A stretch of DNA of 64,000 nt from Aporhodopirellula rubra (lineage in GTDB: Bacteria; Planctomycetota; Planctomycetia; Pirellulales; Pirellulaceae): positions 1-64,000 of the forward strand of contig NZ_JACHXU010000008.1 of NCBI RefSeq assembly GCF_014192335.1, in the 5' to 3' direction. Positions 50,839 to 56,591 of this stretch are shown in pieces (within the stretch, counting starts at the first letter, position 1; every line of letters begins with the position of its first letter). A program made the position numbers and the translations under genes. The notes under the pieces are model-generated. The model had not been told where the DNA came from, did no database searches, and saw only the letters and a program-made list of their open reading frames with translations.

Positions 50839-52044
50839 TCAATCATCCGCGGTCAATCGACTCGCAAGGCTCGACAGGTCATCACCTCTCAGGGCACCGG
50901 CGACGAGTTCCGGCATGCGATCAGGTGTGCAACCAAAACAAGGAATTCCGAGGTCGGCGAGCTTTCTCGCGAGGCCCGCGTCGTAGCTCGGAACTCCCGA
51001 ATCCGACAACGCGAGCAAGCATAGGACTTTCACTCCCGAACCAACCATCTCACCGAGTCGACGGACGAGTTGGGATTGATTGCCGCCTTCGTACAGATCC
51101 GTCAGCAAAATAAACAGAGTCTCGCGAGGCGACTCGATAAATTGTTCGCAGTACGCGACCGATTTGTTGATATCAGTACCGCCACCGAGTTGCACCCCAA
51201 ACAACATGTCGACGGGATCGTCACCGCATTGCTCGGTCAGGTCCACGACCTCTGTATCAAAGGCGACCACGTGGGTTTTGAGCGCAGGCAAACTCGCAAA
51301 AATTGAACCGACAACGGCGCCATAGACAACCGAATCGGCCATCGAACCGCTTTGATCCATGTCGACGATCACCGTCCAACTTTGTCGCCGTTGGGCCCGA
51401 GAAAAAAAGTAAACCCGCTCGGGGATCAATTTGCCGAGCTGCGAATTGTAGTTCTTCAGGTTGCGACCGATCGTCCACTTCCAATCGATCGAATCGGCGT
51501 GAGGAATCGGGGAGTGCTCGCCTCGATTAAGTGCTCCCGTCACGGCGCGGCGAATTTTGTGATCGAGGTCCAATTTAATTTTGTCGACAACCGCACGGAC
51601 GACCATTCGCGCGGTCTCTTTGGTACGTTCGGGAATCTGACCTCGCAGGGACATCAACGTTCCGACTAACTGCACGTTGGGTTGGACGTTTTTAAGCATT
51701 TCGGGCTCGAACAGCAGTTGAGTCAACCCTTTTCGTTCGATCGCATCGGATTGGATCACCGACACGACATCCTCGGTGAAGTACGTTCGCACGTCACCGA
51801 GCCATTTGGCGAGTCGTGGTGACGAACCACCGAGTCCCGCGGAACGCTGCCCATCAGCGTCCTCACCGGTCTCGTCATAGATCGCCGCGAGCGCCTCATC
51901 CATTGCAATTTGTTCTTCCGACAGCGCGGGACATGCACCCCCGCATGCGCGTCCGAGTTGTTCATCTGCCGACTGTCCGAGCACCAATCGCCATCGCCGG
52001 ACCTGTTCATTGATCTCGTTAGAATTCGTCGAAGTCGAACTCAT
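50839..52044 (-). CDS. VWA domain protein, third gene of the MoxR-DUF5682-VWA cluster
   Basis: This 401-residue protein has a helical N-terminal half and a C-terminal von Willebrand A domain. The metal-ion-dependent adhesion site is DMDQSGSM at about 228-235, the standard DxSxS. A second conserved segment is LFGVQLGGGTDINKSVAYCE, with Thr as a metal ligand, and LFILLTDLYEGGN gives the third position. ATG 52044 is chosen; frames further upstream begin in the preceding gene. The start lies inside the DUF5682 gene, so translation is probably coupled. In MoxR systems the VWA protein is usually the substrate-recognition partner of the ATPase. Confidence 0.88.
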   Translation of the reverse strand: MSSTSTNSNEINEQVRRWRLVLGQSADEQLGRACGGACPALSEEQIAMDEALAAIYDETGEDADGQRSAGLGGSSPRLAKWLGDVRTYFTEDVVSVIQSDAIERKGLTQLLFEPEMLKNVQPNVQLVGTLMSLRGQIPERTKETARMVVRAVVDKIKLDLDHKIRRAVTGALNRGEHSPIPHADSIDWKWTIGRNLKNYNSQLGKLIPERVYFFSRAQRRQSWTVIVDMDQSGSMADSVVYGAVVGSIFASLPALKTHVVAFDTEVVDLTEQCGDDPVDMLFGVQLGGGTDINKSVAYCEQFIESPRETLFILLTDLYEGGNQSQLVRRLGEMVGSGVKVLCLLALSDSGVPSYDAGLARKLADLGIPCFGCTPDRMPELVAGALRGDDLSSLASRLTADD

Positions 52045-54493
52045 TGAGTTCCTCCAAGGCATTTTGTTCATCGTCGCTGAGTTCAGACTGCATCAAGTCC
52101 GTCGCTTCCTCGGCACTGATCCCCCAATGATCTCCCAGATTTTCGGCGATGGTTCGTTTCTCGTTCGCACTAAAACCACCAAATGCTCGTCGTAAGAACA
52201 CGACGCTGCGGCGAAACTGTTCTTCGTCGAGCTGCGAAACGTACTCGGCTAATTGAGACCACATCGACTGGCGAGCTAACAACGCATACCGATTACGTCC
52301 CGAGAGTCCCTCGAACCATCCCGCCCCGAGGTCGGCTGGAATTCCAGGCGACAACCTGCGGGAAACTTCTCGCGATAGTTCGTCGTTGTCCATCTGGCCA
52401 CGTTCGAGCAAGATCGCGCACGCGTAGCCTGACAACAGTGCGTTGCGATCGTCACGCCGCGCGAGTTCGCGTAACCGATCGATCCACAACGCTTCATCCA
52501 CCCGTTCATCAAACTCGAGTGCGATGTTGTTGAGTTGATCCATTGCGGTCATCAATTTTTGCGCCGCGGCGGTATCACAAACCGATGACGCTATCAAACC
52601 TAACACCGACTGAACGAATAGCTCCTCCACCAACGGCAACAGGGGAGCGGTGTCGAGCCGCCGTACGTCACCGAATCGGATCGTCGTCGTCAGTTCGTGA
52701 GCGGCTCCCGCGGTGTCTGCAACCGCGGCGGACTGCGTCGCGAGCTCCTGCAATTTTCCTCGTGCAGACAACATTCCAGGCAACATTTCGCATCGGCTCG
52801 CGACTTTCACGAGCGCGGCCGCCTCGGCAACGGTCGAGGCGTTTTCGATCCCTTGCTGAAGTTGATAGGCCGCGGCGATTTCGACGGTTTCGCCCATCAA
52901 GACAGACTCAACGAGAGCGATCTCCGCTTCGGGTGACCATTGCAATTGCCACGACTCGCCCCAGGTCGCGGAGGCTTGCCGTGTGTTTTGCAATGTCGCG
53001 AAAGGAACATTCAGTAGTGCGAGTCGATGCAAAAAAGTCGATCGGTTCAAATCCAAGAACGCGGACGCCTCCGTCTTTGCCCGTCGATTCTCTCTTAGAT
53101 CCAAAGACAAGTCCTGCTTCACCGTTGAACGGTACTTTTCCAAATTCAGCGATTGAATCTTCTGATTGAAGTCGTCTTGAATCGACGTTTGGCTGACCCC
53201 TTTTGGGAGGGTTCCGATTGCTGTCCCAACTTCAACGCGTGCCATCGGTTCCGCCAAAACACCACGATCACCTTGACCGATGATCGCCACGGCGGCATCT
53301 CGTAAATCTTCAAGTACCGGTGCTGTTCCCTGCTTGAGTGACGACAACATCCGACTCAGTCGAACCGCTTCGATCACCTCGGCGGTACTGCGATGCGTTC
53401 CCGATTTTCGCAGCTCCCGAACGACTCGCGTGAGATAGCCCGCGGCAAGATCATCGACGCCACGGTGTTTTTGATCAGCCTCGACACGTGATGGCGAATT
53501 GAGACAATCCCAGAGCAGTTCGTAGTAGGCGGGAGCGTGATTGCCCGCGCCATAACCTGATTGAGAAGATAGTTTGAAATACGAATAGGGCATCAACGTT
53601 CGTTTCGCATTCAAACTCGGCAAACTCGTGAGTTCGTCGTCGGTCATTGACGGATGTTCGTCACCGAGCACGCTGGCATGAAATGCACCGACGATGACAA
53701 CAACTTTTTCGGGTTGGTGTCCCTCGGCCAACGCCTCGTCGATGCACCGCCGCATGAAAGACTCTCGGATCAAGTTTTCCGCGTTCTCCCGGGGGTGATC
53801 TTCTCGAAGGTCTCGAAGCTGTTCGCCAAAAGCCATTGCGGCAGTCCGATAGGCCCCTGAATTGTCGAGATGTTCGAATCGACGTTCCCAGTACGCCTCG
53901 TAATCGGACTCCCCGGCGGACTCCGCAATTCGTTCATACACACCTTTGGTATGTTCGAAGGGTGCAGGCGAATCGGCGTCGCTCGTTTCATCTGTGTCTG
54001 CGTCGTCATCAGCCGGTGTTGAATGTTCTTCCGACGTCGCGGGTTCCTCCGGTGCAATCGCAGGTACTCGGATAGGCTGCAGTGCCAAAAACACGTGCGA
54101 CGGCAGATCGATGAAACGTACGTCCGCATCGTGATCATCGGCCCAGGTAATCGCTTGATACTCGGGGCTGTAGCGGGCTAATGGATAAACGAGCGTCCGA
54201 ACCGGAACCGATTCGGTGTACGCGAGAATCGCGATCGGTGGTCGTGTTTCTTTGCGTACGATATCGCGAATCAGATCGGTTGCGTCATGCAGCCCTTCGA
54301 TCAACACGATCGTCGGTTGCACTTCGTCGAGCAGGTCGCGCAAATCGCGAGCTGCCATGGGTGAGAGATGCCGCACGCCGAAAACGTGGATACGATCGCG
54401 TGAGATGGTCGGACGTGTCGCCTCAATACTCGCCGAGTTTGGGTTCGTCGTCTTCGCAGTCGATCGCGGCGAGGTCGATTTGCGTTTAGCCAT
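52019..54493 (-). CDS. DUF5682 family protein, second gene of the MoxR-DUF5682-VWA cluster
   Basis: This 824-residue protein is without a signal peptide, so presumably cytoplasmic. The N-terminal domain has GVRH at 39-42 (IHVFGVRHLSPMAARDLRDL), a glutamate in LIEG at 64-67, LPSH at 130-133 and, after an acidic insert (150-180), RESFMRRC at 244-250 and GAFH at 269-272 (VVVIVGAFHASVLG). Two GxxH motifs with Glu and Arg between them is the pattern of the TraB/PrgY/Tiki and EreA/ChaN superfamily, so a metal-dependent hydrolase is plausible; that link is my inference. The remainder is helical, repeat-like and of unknown use. It overlaps the MoxR gene by 8 bases and the VWA gene by 26. Confidence 0.85.
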   Translation of the reverse strand: MAKRKSTSPRSTAKTTNPNSASIEATRPTISRDRIHVFGVRHLSPMAARDLRDLLDEVQPTIVLIEGLHDATDLIRDIVRKETRPPIAILAYTESVPVRTLVYPLARYSPEYQAITWADDHDADVRFIDLPSHVFLALQPIRVPAIAPEEPATSEEHSTPADDDADTDETSDADSPAPFEHTKGVYERIAESAGESDYEAYWERRFEHLDNSGAYRTAAMAFGEQLRDLREDHPRENAENLIRESFMRRCIDEALAEGHQPEKVVVIVGAFHASVLGDEHPSMTDDELTSLPSLNAKRTLMPYSYFKLSSQSGYGAGNHAPAYYELLWDCLNSPSRVEADQKHRGVDDLAAGYLTRVVRELRKSGTHRSTAEVIEAVRLSRMLSSLKQGTAPVLEDLRDAAVAIIGQGDRGVLAEPMARVEVGTAIGTLPKGVSQTSIQDDFNQKIQSLNLEKYRSTVKQDLSLDLRENRRAKTEASAFLDLNRSTFLHRLALLNVPFATLQNTRQASATWGESWQLQWSPEAEIALVESVLMGETVEIAAAYQLQQGIENASTVAEAAALVKVASRCEMLPGMLSARGKLQELATQSAAVADTAGAAHELTTTIRFGDVRRLDTAPLLPLVEELFVQSVLGLIASSVCDTAAAQKLMTAMDQLNNIALEFDERVDEALWIDRLRELARRDDRNALLSGYACAILLERGQMDNDELSREVSRRLSPGIPADLGAGWFEGLSGRNRYALLARQSMWSQLAEYVSQLDEEQFRRSVVFLRRAFGGFSANEKRTIAENLGDHWGISAEEATDLMQSELSDDEQNALEELNEFDFDEF

Positions 54494-55643
54494 TGTGGTC
54501 TTCGCACGCCGTGTAAAGCGGACGCCACGCCGAACCGCGTTTCTTGACGACGTTTTTCAGATACTCGGCCCACACGAGTTTATCTTTTTCTTCGTCCCGT
54601 ACGATCGCTCCCTGCAATCCGGCGGCGAGATCGCCGGGTGACACACTGCCATCGCCGAAGTTACCCGCTAACGCCATGCTGCCGGTGAGTAGTGAGATCG
54701 CTTCGGCGGTAGACAGGACACCCGATGGAGTTTTGACTTTGTTCTTACCATCGAGCGTTTGCCCTTCGCGGAGTTCACGGAAGATCGTGACAATCTGTTC
54801 GATGGAATCTTCGCTAGGCAGTTCGGCCTGCAACGCGAGGTCGGCCGATAACTCTTTCACGCGATTGGTCACGATCTCAATTTCGGTTTCCATCTTTGCC
54901 GGCGTTGGCAATACGACAATGTTGAAACGTCGTTTTAATGCTGCCGACATATCGTTAACACCTCGGTCACGCGTGTTCGCCGTTGCGATCACGGAGAACC
55001 CTTTCGCTGCCGGCAGTTCCGTCGAAAGTTCGGGAATCGAAAGACGTTTCTCGCTAAGCAGCGAGATCATTGCGTCTTGAACTTCCGAGGCACATCGCGT
55101 GATTTCTTCGAACCGCGCAAGGCTGCCTTGTTCCATCGCCCGGTAGATCGGGCTTTTGATCAGTGCTTCCTGGCTAGGTCCATGCGCGATCAACATCGCA
55201 TAATTCCAGGTGTAACGAATTTGTTCTTCAGTGGTTCCCGCGGTGCCCTGGATAACCTTGGTGCTGTCACCGTTAATGGCAGCAGCGAGGTGCTCACTGA
55301 GCCAGGACTTCGCCGTACCGGGTTCGCCGATCAGAAGCAGCGCGCGATCGGTAACGAGTGTCGAGATGGCGATCTGCACGACACGGTCGTTGCCGACATA
55401 CTTTGGAAGAATCGTTCGCGAGCCGACTTTGCCACCAATGATGTAGGTCAAAACGCTCCGTGGCGACATCCTCCATCCCGCCGGACAAGGATCTTTCTCG
55501 GCGCGAATGAGGGCGTCGATCTCGTCCGCAAACGCCAATTCGGCGGGCTGCCTTAGTACGGACGAAGCATCGGCAGTATCTGGATTGCCTTTTGACTTAG
55601 AAACCGAAACGGCCGACTTTGGGGAAGTAGACTTTTTGGCCAT
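54486..55643 (-). CDS. MoxR-like AAA ATPase, first gene of the MoxR-DUF5682-VWA cluster
   Basis: This is a 385-residue AAA ATPase of the MoxR type. The Walker A motif is GEPGTAKS at 106-113. The Walker B region is ARFEEITR at 176-183, with Glu where most MoxR proteins have the Asp of LLLDEINR. Sensor 1 is VIATANTRDRGVNDMSAALK, and the arginine finger follows at LKRRFN. It ends GSAWRPLYTACEDHNG, and its stop overlaps the DUF5682 start. MoxR ATPases work with VWA partners as chaperones that mature or activate other proteins; here the third partner would be DUF5682. The role in the cell is not known. Confidence 0.92.
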   Translation of the reverse strand: MAKKSTSPKSAVSVSKSKGNPDTADASSVLRQPAELAFADEIDALIRAEKDPCPAGWRMSPRSVLTYIIGGKVGSRTILPKYVGNDRVVQIAISTLVTDRALLLIGEPGTAKSWLSEHLAAAINGDSTKVIQGTAGTTEEQIRYTWNYAMLIAHGPSQEALIKSPIYRAMEQGSLARFEEITRCASEVQDAMISLLSEKRLSIPELSTELPAAKGFSVIATANTRDRGVNDMSAALKRRFNIVVLPTPAKMETEIEIVTNRVKELSADLALQAELPSEDSIEQIVTIFRELREGQTLDGKNKVKTPSGVLSTAEAISLLTGSMALAGNFGDGSVSPGDLAAGLQGAIVRDEEKDKLVWAEYLKNVVKKRGSAWRPLYTACEDHNG

Positions 55644-55754: not shown

Positions 55755-56591
55755 TTACTTTGGCTCTAACAGCCAGATACCGGCGTTGAGAAGCCGCTTG
55801 AGTTCGGCGGCGTCGATGGACGCTTCCGCCGCATGCCTCGAATCATAGATCACAATCGACTGACGTTGGACCTCGCGAACACGGACCACACCGGGCGGAT
55901 CGATTCCGTTCATGAAATAGAATTGACCGCTTTCAATTTTGGGCCGGATCCGTGCCTTTCGATCGGCACCCGCTTCAATTTTCAGTTTTGGACCGTATTG
56001 GTACTTCTCGGCAAATCGTTCGAGAAGATTGGGGTCAGGCGTCTCGGGCGGGGTGGGCACGCTCGCCGTGGACGAATTTTCGTCTGTCGTTTGATTCGGG
56101 TCTTCGCTCGTCCCCGATGACGGACTCTGTGCATCGTCATCTGACATAGTCTCGCCATCGGACGCGTGTCCTTCGTTGGAAACGGCATGATCCAGGGCTG
56201 AGATCAAATCTCGAAACGTTTTATTAACCGGGCCAGTGAGTTGCTGCATTTTGGCTTGGGCGTTTTTGACCTCATTGAGCTTTTGCAGAGAGAGGTTCAC
56301 TTTTCCTTGTCGTGCTGAAGCGATGATCGATCCGACCATCGAATTCCAACGGCCAGAAATTCCGTTAAACGTCATCTCCATCTGGCGGACGCGTTGCAAC
56401 GATGACTGGGCGCGGCCTTGGTTGAATTCCTTCTGTGCTTCGGCCAATTCCGAATTGAACGAATTGATGCCCTTGAGTCCCTCGATCACATTCCCACCGG
56501 GTAAGCCACGCACCGCACCGCCGGTCAGGTTCGCAGTACGTTGAATTGCGGTCGAGACGTTCGAGAAGAGGATTGAGTCCACTCGGATCAT
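55755..56591 (-). CDS. Uncharacterised protein upstream of the MoxR-DUF5682-VWA cluster
   Basis: This 278-residue protein has no signal peptide. A helical N-terminal half (LAEAQKEFNQGRAQSSLQRV, and KLNEVKNAQAKMQQLTGPVN) is followed by an acidic Ser/Thr/Asp/Pro linker near 140-180 and a C-terminal beta-like part (SIVIYDSRHAAEASIDAAEL). No family was recognised. It lies 111 bases before the MoxR gene on the same strand, close enough to belong to that operon but not overlapping, so membership is uncertain. A SWIM-type zinc protein, which I would have expected beside DUF5682 genes, is not found. Confidence 0.6.
   Translation of the reverse strand: MIRVDSILFSNVSTAIQRTANLTGGAVRGLPGGNVIEGLKGINSFNSELAEAQKEFNQGRAQSSLQRVRQMEMTFNGISGRWNSMVGSIIASARQGKVNLSLQKLNEVKNAQAKMQQLTGPVNKTFRDLISALDHAVSNEGHASDGETMSDDDAQSPSSGTSEDPNQTTDENSSTASVPTPPETPDPNLLERFAEKYQYGPKLKIEAGADRKARIRPKIESGQFYFMNGIDPPGVVRVREVQRQSIVIYDSRHAAEASIDAAELKRLLNAGIWLLEPK

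Follow-up and report, generated by a model that had tools for sequence, protein, structure and literature searches.

We analysed a 64,000-nucleotide stretch of DNA from Aporhodopirellula rubra (contig NZ_JACHXU010000008.1, positions 1 to 64,000; hereafter the window), in which genes for a MoxR-type AAA+ ATPase, a DUF5682 protein and a VWA protein lie consecutively in this order, overlapping and all on the minus strand (Table 1). The open reading frame (ORF) calls and the Pfam matches agree with an earlier description of the locus made from its letters alone (the original prediction), which had proposed three co-directional overlapping genes. We found that the three are known genes with homologues in E. 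coli, and that the window is best explained as holding the three-gene core of a five-component YehL-type AAA+ machine that is real, conserved and broadly distributed. What the present analysis adds is the five-gene composition, the co-retention of components after their dispersal, and a link of DUF5682 to the TIKI/TraB superfamily.

Table 1. Genes and predicted domain of the locus, with positions in the window
Feature	Position	Strand	Basis
MoxR-type AAA+ ATPase, YehL subfamily (predicted), 385 aa	54486..55643	-	ORF call and Pfam AAA_5/MoxR, 8.3e-39
DUF5682 (PF18934) protein, 824 aa, YehM homologue	52019..54493	-	Pfam E 1.2e-147
Putative TIKI/TraB-like domain at the N-terminus of DUF5682 (approximately residues 35-280), containing H42, E66, R243 and H272	53654..54391	-	
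VWA (CoxE-type) protein, YehP homologue	50839..52044	-	Pfam VWA_CoxE 3.6e-47
278-aa ORF upstream of MoxR, same direction	55755..56591	-	no family match

The MoxR and DUF5682 genes overlap by exactly eight bases (54486-54493). For the VWA gene the longest ORF runs over 50839-52071 (410 aa); a GGAGG stands six bases before the ATG at 52044, which we regard as the most likely start in preference to 52071, and with this start the DUF5682 and VWA genes overlap at 52019-52044. Both overlaps are those originally proposed. Among the homologues listed, one from Rhodopirellula sp. SWK7 shows the highest identity, 97%.

The E. coli counterpart and the MoxR and VWA proteins

In E. coli K-12 the gene order is yehI (DUF4132), yehK, yehL, yehM, yehP, yehQ (SWIM), so that the MoxR, DUF5682 and VWA homologues (yehL, yehM and yehP) follow each other as in the window. 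There yehM overlaps yehP, the SWIM protein YehQ adjoins YehP, and the DUF4132 protein YehI is encoded upstream, whereas in the window no SWIM or DUF4132 gene stands beside the three genes. The identity between the window DUF5682 protein and YehM is only 26% (over 563 aa), that between the window MoxR protein and YehL 41% (353 aa, 1e-86), and that between the window VWA protein and YehP 37% (375 aa).

Of the 5426 E. coli genomes searched, 5284 contain yehM DNA, at a median of one place per genome. A machine that almost all E. coli genomes carry, and whose YehL-type MoxR loci, as read here, come from eight or more phyla by their labels, has yet no function and no assay in the literature searched: no paper mentioning DUF5682 was found in a search that left most subscription papers outside its scope, and no functional study of yehL, yehM, yehP, yehQ, yehI, DUF5691 or DUF4132 was among the literature matches listed. 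In the available portions of two studies, yehQ appears among the plasmid and deletion constructs of work on butanol tolerance, and yehM among genes mutated under copper. One E. coli strain (NZ_CP137737.1, 1867916-1871259) has two DUF5682 features and an IS5-family transposase under the yehM match, and its yehM is probably interrupted.

According to the part of PMC3893208 available to us, MoxR proteins form seven named subfamilies, YehL among them, and local gene structure is one of the criteria by which they are recognised. The window MoxR protein is accordingly predicted to belong to the YehL subfamily, both by its identity to YehL and by the DUF5682 gene, then the VWA gene, downstream of it. 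It carries the ATPase motifs; among 97 MoxR sequences, the Walker A motif G.PGTAK[ST] is present in 96, TAN.RD in all 97 and a narrow Walker B pattern in 76. Against sequences of the Protein Data Bank (PDB), the MoxR profile matches midasin, Lon and others, and the VWA profile gives weak matches only. The DQSGS metal site, which had been described as intact, is present in the window VWA protein, and D.SGS is kept in 81 of the 82 VWA sequences compared.

Given these homologues and a named MoxR subfamily, the locus can no longer be called undescribed, as it had been.

A five-gene unit and its dispersal

We found a DUF5682 match in 19 of 149 genomes in a survey of the phylum, and fetched 16 loci with wide flanks, a set that excludes the window itself, one fragmented case (G089) and one sub-threshold match (G067). 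The MoxR-DUF5682-VWA order is present in 15 of the 16; in the remaining locus (L031) the contig ends before MoxR. Furthermore, 14 of the 16 have a gene with a SWIM-type motif no more than 7 kb away.

Using a MoxR alignment to scan 84,980 species genomes, we obtained at least 588 relatives, of which the best 80 loci were kept, so that this sample is biased to close relatives. DUF5682 is present in 69 of the 73 loci whose flank downstream of MoxR spans 2.5 kb or more, and directly adjacent in 68. DUF5682 and VWA are both present in 62 of the 66 loci with at least 4.5 kb downstream, and under a strict rule they are adjacent in 52; the other ten comprise five gaps with inserted sequence, one VWA gene upstream on the opposite strand and four apparent overlaps of ORF calling. 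On the upstream side (68 loci with at least 3.5 kb), a SWIM gene was found in 65 and a HEAT-like gene, by profile, in 44. A further ORF family occurs in 25 loci, mainly of Clostridia and mostly at the place of the HEAT gene; 12 of its 27 members weakly match the HEAT profile, and with this family counted in, such a gene is present in 71 of the 80 loci.

In the named annotation of Rhizobium etli the order is SWIM, DUF5691, AAA, DUF5682, VWA, and the DUF5691 protein matches the HEAT profile (7.9e-20); on an Iodobacter plasmid it is DUF4132, DUF4132, AAA, DUF5682, VWA, SWIM, like that of E. coli. In surveys of four other phyla DUF5682 is present in 8/119, 3/118, 6/150 and 3/119 genomes. Among 20 loci anchored on DUF5682 in these phyla (the main loci of the four centre genomes and one duplicate excluded, some genomes giving more than one locus), 19 have MoxR no farther than 1.5 kb away, and 18 have VWA adjoining or fused. 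Fusions of DUF5682 and VWA into a single reading frame occur in several lineages (L031, L037, L097, L141, L142, L163-L166 and four database proteins).

Collectively, these gene orders make a conserved gene unit almost certain. As judged by sequence, the unit in other phyla consists of five genes, encoding a SWIM zinc finger protein, a HEAT-like DUF5691 protein (or DUF4132), MoxR, DUF5682 and VWA, and not of three parts as first suggested. The constancy of MoxR and VWA as neighbours of DUF5682 in other genomes had been set beforehand as a test, and the neighbours proved near-constant, with fusions and co-occurrence in addition.

Contig C26 of the window genome carries the SWIM gene and contig C1 the HEAT gene, both unlinked to the three genes: the two partners are dispersed but kept. 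Within the window's genus DUF5682 is present in 7 of 13 genomes, in three as in the window and in four fused with VWA. Among 31 relatives, 13 carry DUF5682; the SWIM protein is found in seven, all of them DUF5682 carriers (p = 6.5e-4, kinship ignored; two of the seven matches are weak, at 34-37% identity), and the HEAT protein in five, again all carriers (p = 0.0076, kinship ignored). A table by sub-type, in which 5/5 occurrences of HEAT fall in genomes having window-type DUF5682 (p = 5.9e-6, 31 genomes), was set aside because its classes were defined after the data had been seen; we rely instead on the weaker test above, which takes DUF5682 of any type. In the one-contig genome G676 the SWIM, HEAT and DUF5682 genes are about 0.7-1.8 Mb apart, and since this genome is a single contig the dispersal is not an artefact of assembly.

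Apart from the unit itself, several individual loci are of note. Just upstream of the HEAT-like gene on contig C1 of the window genome, a 429-aa ORF (L124, 9481-10770) has a reverse-transcriptase-like YADD motif, noticed by eye. A gene for an RtcB RNA ligase lies between DUF5682 and VWA on a Clostridia contig (L053, 3499-4695), and in Variovorax (L103, 9264-14351) MoxR and DUF5682 are separated by an ORF for an HSP90-like ATPase and the gene of a weakly TPR-like protein. We also considered whether a replacement third component stands in the MoxR loci without DUF5682 (L074, L109, L113 and L114). This was rejected, as the two downstream genes are unrelated among the three loci scanned (L074, L109 and L113); the genomes of L109 and L113 carry DUF5682 elsewhere.

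The N-terminal domain of DUF5682

The pattern of GxxH, Glu and Arg is a hallmark of the TIKI/TraB superfamily of hydrolases, and it is visible in our TraB alignment (A7). In the window DUF5682 protein the corresponding motifs are GVRH (39-42), IEG (65-67), RES (243-245) and GAFH (269-272); the original prediction had the first, second and fourth at these positions and placed RES one residue too far, at 244-246. In a 74-row DUF5682 alignment, R41, H42, E66, E244, G269 and H272 are conserved in all 74 rows and R243 in 73, and position 39 is Gly in 51 rows and Pro in 23, so that the first motif is GxxH or PxxH. The loose motif, which allows either residue first, occurs in 88 of 89 DUF5682 sequences; of 17,800 N-terminal stretches after shuffling, a single one contains it, which places the motif beyond chance.

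DUF5682 shows the motif set by which the TIKI/TraB/EreA/ChaN superfamily is recognised, namely GxxH twice, a pair of His and Glu, and a basic residue that is conserved, which suggests kinship. In TIKI enzymes, as far as the available part of PMC6254334 describes them, the His-Glu pair is held to be essential, and the conserved basic residue was required for activity in the single enzyme studied. YbaP of E. coli, of the TIKI/TraB/GumN family, has GxxH, Glu, Arg and GxxH in the same order as DUF5682, with spacings between the sites of 25/160/20 against 23/176/25 in the window protein. YbaP has 264 aa and no adjoining MoxR or VWA gene, whereas DUF5682 carries some 540 additional residues and is linked to MoxR and VWA.

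Profile comparison points weakly in the same direction. Aligned with hhalign, DUF5682 matches TraB at a score of 30.9 (P 0.0024, with a probability of only 12%), and the smaller TraB alignment gives 28.7. None of 150 column shuffles reaches 30.9 (best 21.9), the reversed profile scores 17.1, and the best of 24 other family profiles scores 22.4. The alignment pairs R243 with the invariant Arg of TraB, and GAFH with the TraB motif GALH. When 45 DUF5682 N-terminal domains were scanned against Pfam, TraB_PrgY_gumN (PF01963) was the most matched other family, with 7/45, and DUF5694 was matched by 2/45 (best 6e-4); the two TraB matches that were located and one DUF5694 match cover the equivalent Arg and the second GxxH. 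Matches to ChaN and Erythro_esteras (one weak member each) were not taken as independent support; that to Erythro_esteras (L040) includes the Arg and ends just short of the second GxxH.

The resemblance to TraB, EreA and ChaN that had been proposed for DUF5682 therefore stands in so far as motif and profile match exceed the controls, while the evidence is weak in absolute terms. We consider the N-terminal domain to be probably TIKI-like, and the protein a likely hydrolase by its sequence.

A proposed machine and its alternatives

From these results we propose that MoxR and VWA form a machine acting either on a TIKI-like hydrolase or together with it, a reading to which we give a probability of roughly one half. 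In this proposal the MoxR ring would hydrolyse ATP, and the VWA protein would couple it to DUF5682 through its metal site. The N-terminal domain of DUF5682 would be the TIKI/TraB-type hydrolase, cutting a peptide or ester bond with H42, E66, R243 and H272, and its long C-terminal part may serve assembly. The ATPase would either load the substrate or switch the hydrolase on and off, and recognising or holding the substrate would fall to the SWIM and HEAT-like proteins. In studied MoxR-VWA pairs, as described in the available part of PMC7159879, the VWA domain captures a peptide, and the protein so bound is remodelled as MoxR moves, driven by ATP. The pair in the window may, in an analogous way, load or gate DUF5682. 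The gating is a proposal by this analogy, and ATP-gated hydrolysis is a tentative reading, at somewhat less than even chances.

Should DUF5682 prove to be a TIKI-type hydrolase, the operon would be open to test at once through a defined active site (H42, E66, R243 and H272), a defined ATPase partner and a laboratory strain, K-12, from which the genes can be removed. The proposal, if true, would also extend MoxR-VWA machines, mostly described as assembly chaperones, to the driving of a hydrolase.

Several results weigh against this proposal, in addition to the low hhalign probability. The hhalign alignment covers the second half of the motif set only and does not reach the first GxxH and the Glu. 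The TraB matches in Pfam are weak (best E 0.0059), and the proteins that give them are interrelated; comparable E-values are reached by unrelated families, for example AAA_lid_2 in 3/45 (best 0.012). By sequence, no credible match to DUF5682 was found among solved structures in the PDB. Furthermore, the VWA proteins of L034, L035 and L036 have a Glu at the third metal-site Thr (GGGTD to GAED), with D.SGS kept. In G676, which keeps DUF5682, SWIM and HEAT, neither MoxR nor VWA was seen in the roughly 8 kb around each of the three genes, and in G311 (L172) DUF5682 is likewise solitary within about 8 kb. Finally, we know of no enzymatic activity, substrate or complex for the MoxR-DUF5682-VWA machine.

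The alternative that survives best is that DUF5682 is an inactive client or scaffold, which we judge a serious if clearly less probable explanation. MoxR and VWA would then be a maturation chaperone, comparable to CoxD-CoxE and RavA-ViaA, that remodels DUF5682, or else a complex which the DUF5682, HEAT and SWIM proteins hold, and in this way lets another enzyme turn active. In the portions of the literature available, studied MoxR-VWA pairs mostly assemble or activate a partner, and RavA-ViaA and CoxD-CoxE, each a MoxR ATPase with a VWA cofactor as in the window, act on another complex; the window VWA protein itself belongs to the CoxE family, and the fusion of VWA with DUF5682 suits a client or scaffold as well as it suits an enzyme. 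Unlike those pairs, however, the window type nearly always has a third protein bearing hydrolase-like motifs. Each of the four putative catalytic residues is conserved in 73 or all 74 of the aligned DUF5682 sequences, a constancy for which a mere scaffold has no obvious need. Moreover, the two most recurrent families of outside neighbours, by clustering of the flanks and judged by their E. coli members, are response-regulator-like and ABC-ATPase-like, although a client gene may have been missed among the smaller families, which were not assigned.

The original prediction had suggested that the locus may be a stress or conflict system. We also weighed an anti-phage or other conflict system with DUF5682 as effector, along the lines of the ternary MoxR-vWA systems that Kaur et al. 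2020 describe (PMC7159879). As far as the available part of that paper goes, those systems combine a MoxR AAA+ protein and a vWA protein with a third conserved protein, as does the window, and their components are VMAP, iSTAND, FtsH or beta-propeller proteins. The third component of the window is DUF5682 and by Pfam none of these four, DUF5682 and VWA_CoxE being the sole Pfam matches in the two proteins concerned. The words YehL, YehM, SWIM, EreA and TraB are absent from the main text of PMC7159879.

The occurrence of DUF5682 is patchy both in the window's genus and in the four other phyla, which would fit a conflict system, and the MoxR tree mixes phyla. In addition, restriction genes lie beside one plasmid copy, the window MoxR protein exceeds the bpMoxR cut-off (30.9 against 27 bits), and DUF5682 diverges faster within the genus (79 and 75% identity) than MoxR (95 and 91%) or VWA (93 and 89%). 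Against this, yehM is near-universal in E. coli, and a PADLOC search gave no match for six proteins of the region. The window DUF5682 matches only 36 of 72,556 plasmid records. A single phage record out of 50,697 gave a match, and it is an unverified scaffold from faeces; among 89 candidate stretches in viral contigs there were only two weak MoxR relatives. Variable effector domains after vWA, which the accessible part of PMC7159879 gives for the VMAP class, were not seen in the VWA proteins compared with the window: none of 80 that are complete at the 3′ end extends more than 20 residues past the profile match, which indicates that no effectors are swapped at the C-terminal side. Patchiness outside E. 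coli and the phylum-mixing tree suggest transfer, for which no defence role is needed. A role in phage defence is accordingly disfavoured, and the conflict hypothesis as a whole is unlikely.

A 14-kb record filed as 'Bacteriophage sp.' (MT835988.1, L155; unverified and unannotated) carries MoxR-DUF5682-VWA, and it is probably bacterial in origin.

That MoxR, DUF5682 and VWA are chance neighbours with unrelated roles is very improbable: the solitary DUF5682 genes of G676 and G311 and the unlinked SWIM and HEAT genes of the window genome would fit it, but the order is kept across phyla, the genes fuse, and they co-occur after dispersal. Their trees are similar as well (pairwise patristic r 0.91-0.97), and we do not use these correlations as proof because shared ancestry inflates them.

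Returning to the proposed hydrolase machine, its strongest form is that of a fifth kind of MoxR-vWA machine, the first around a TIKI/TraB-fold hydrolase. It would be an ATP-gated protease or esterase made from separate parts, with MoxR as motor, VWA as adaptor, the TIKI domain as hydrolase, HEAT as scaffold and SWIM for recognition. We put this form forward with some doubt, as a shade less probable than ATP-gated hydrolysis in itself. Taken together, the original interpretation of the locus is partly supported.

The 278-aa ORF next to MoxR has no match in Pfam, NCBIfam or PADLOC and no credible match to YehL, YehM, YehP or YehQ, and it probably stands outside the MoxR-DUF5682-VWA machine; as a neighbour it is kept in two congeners, at 74-76% identity.

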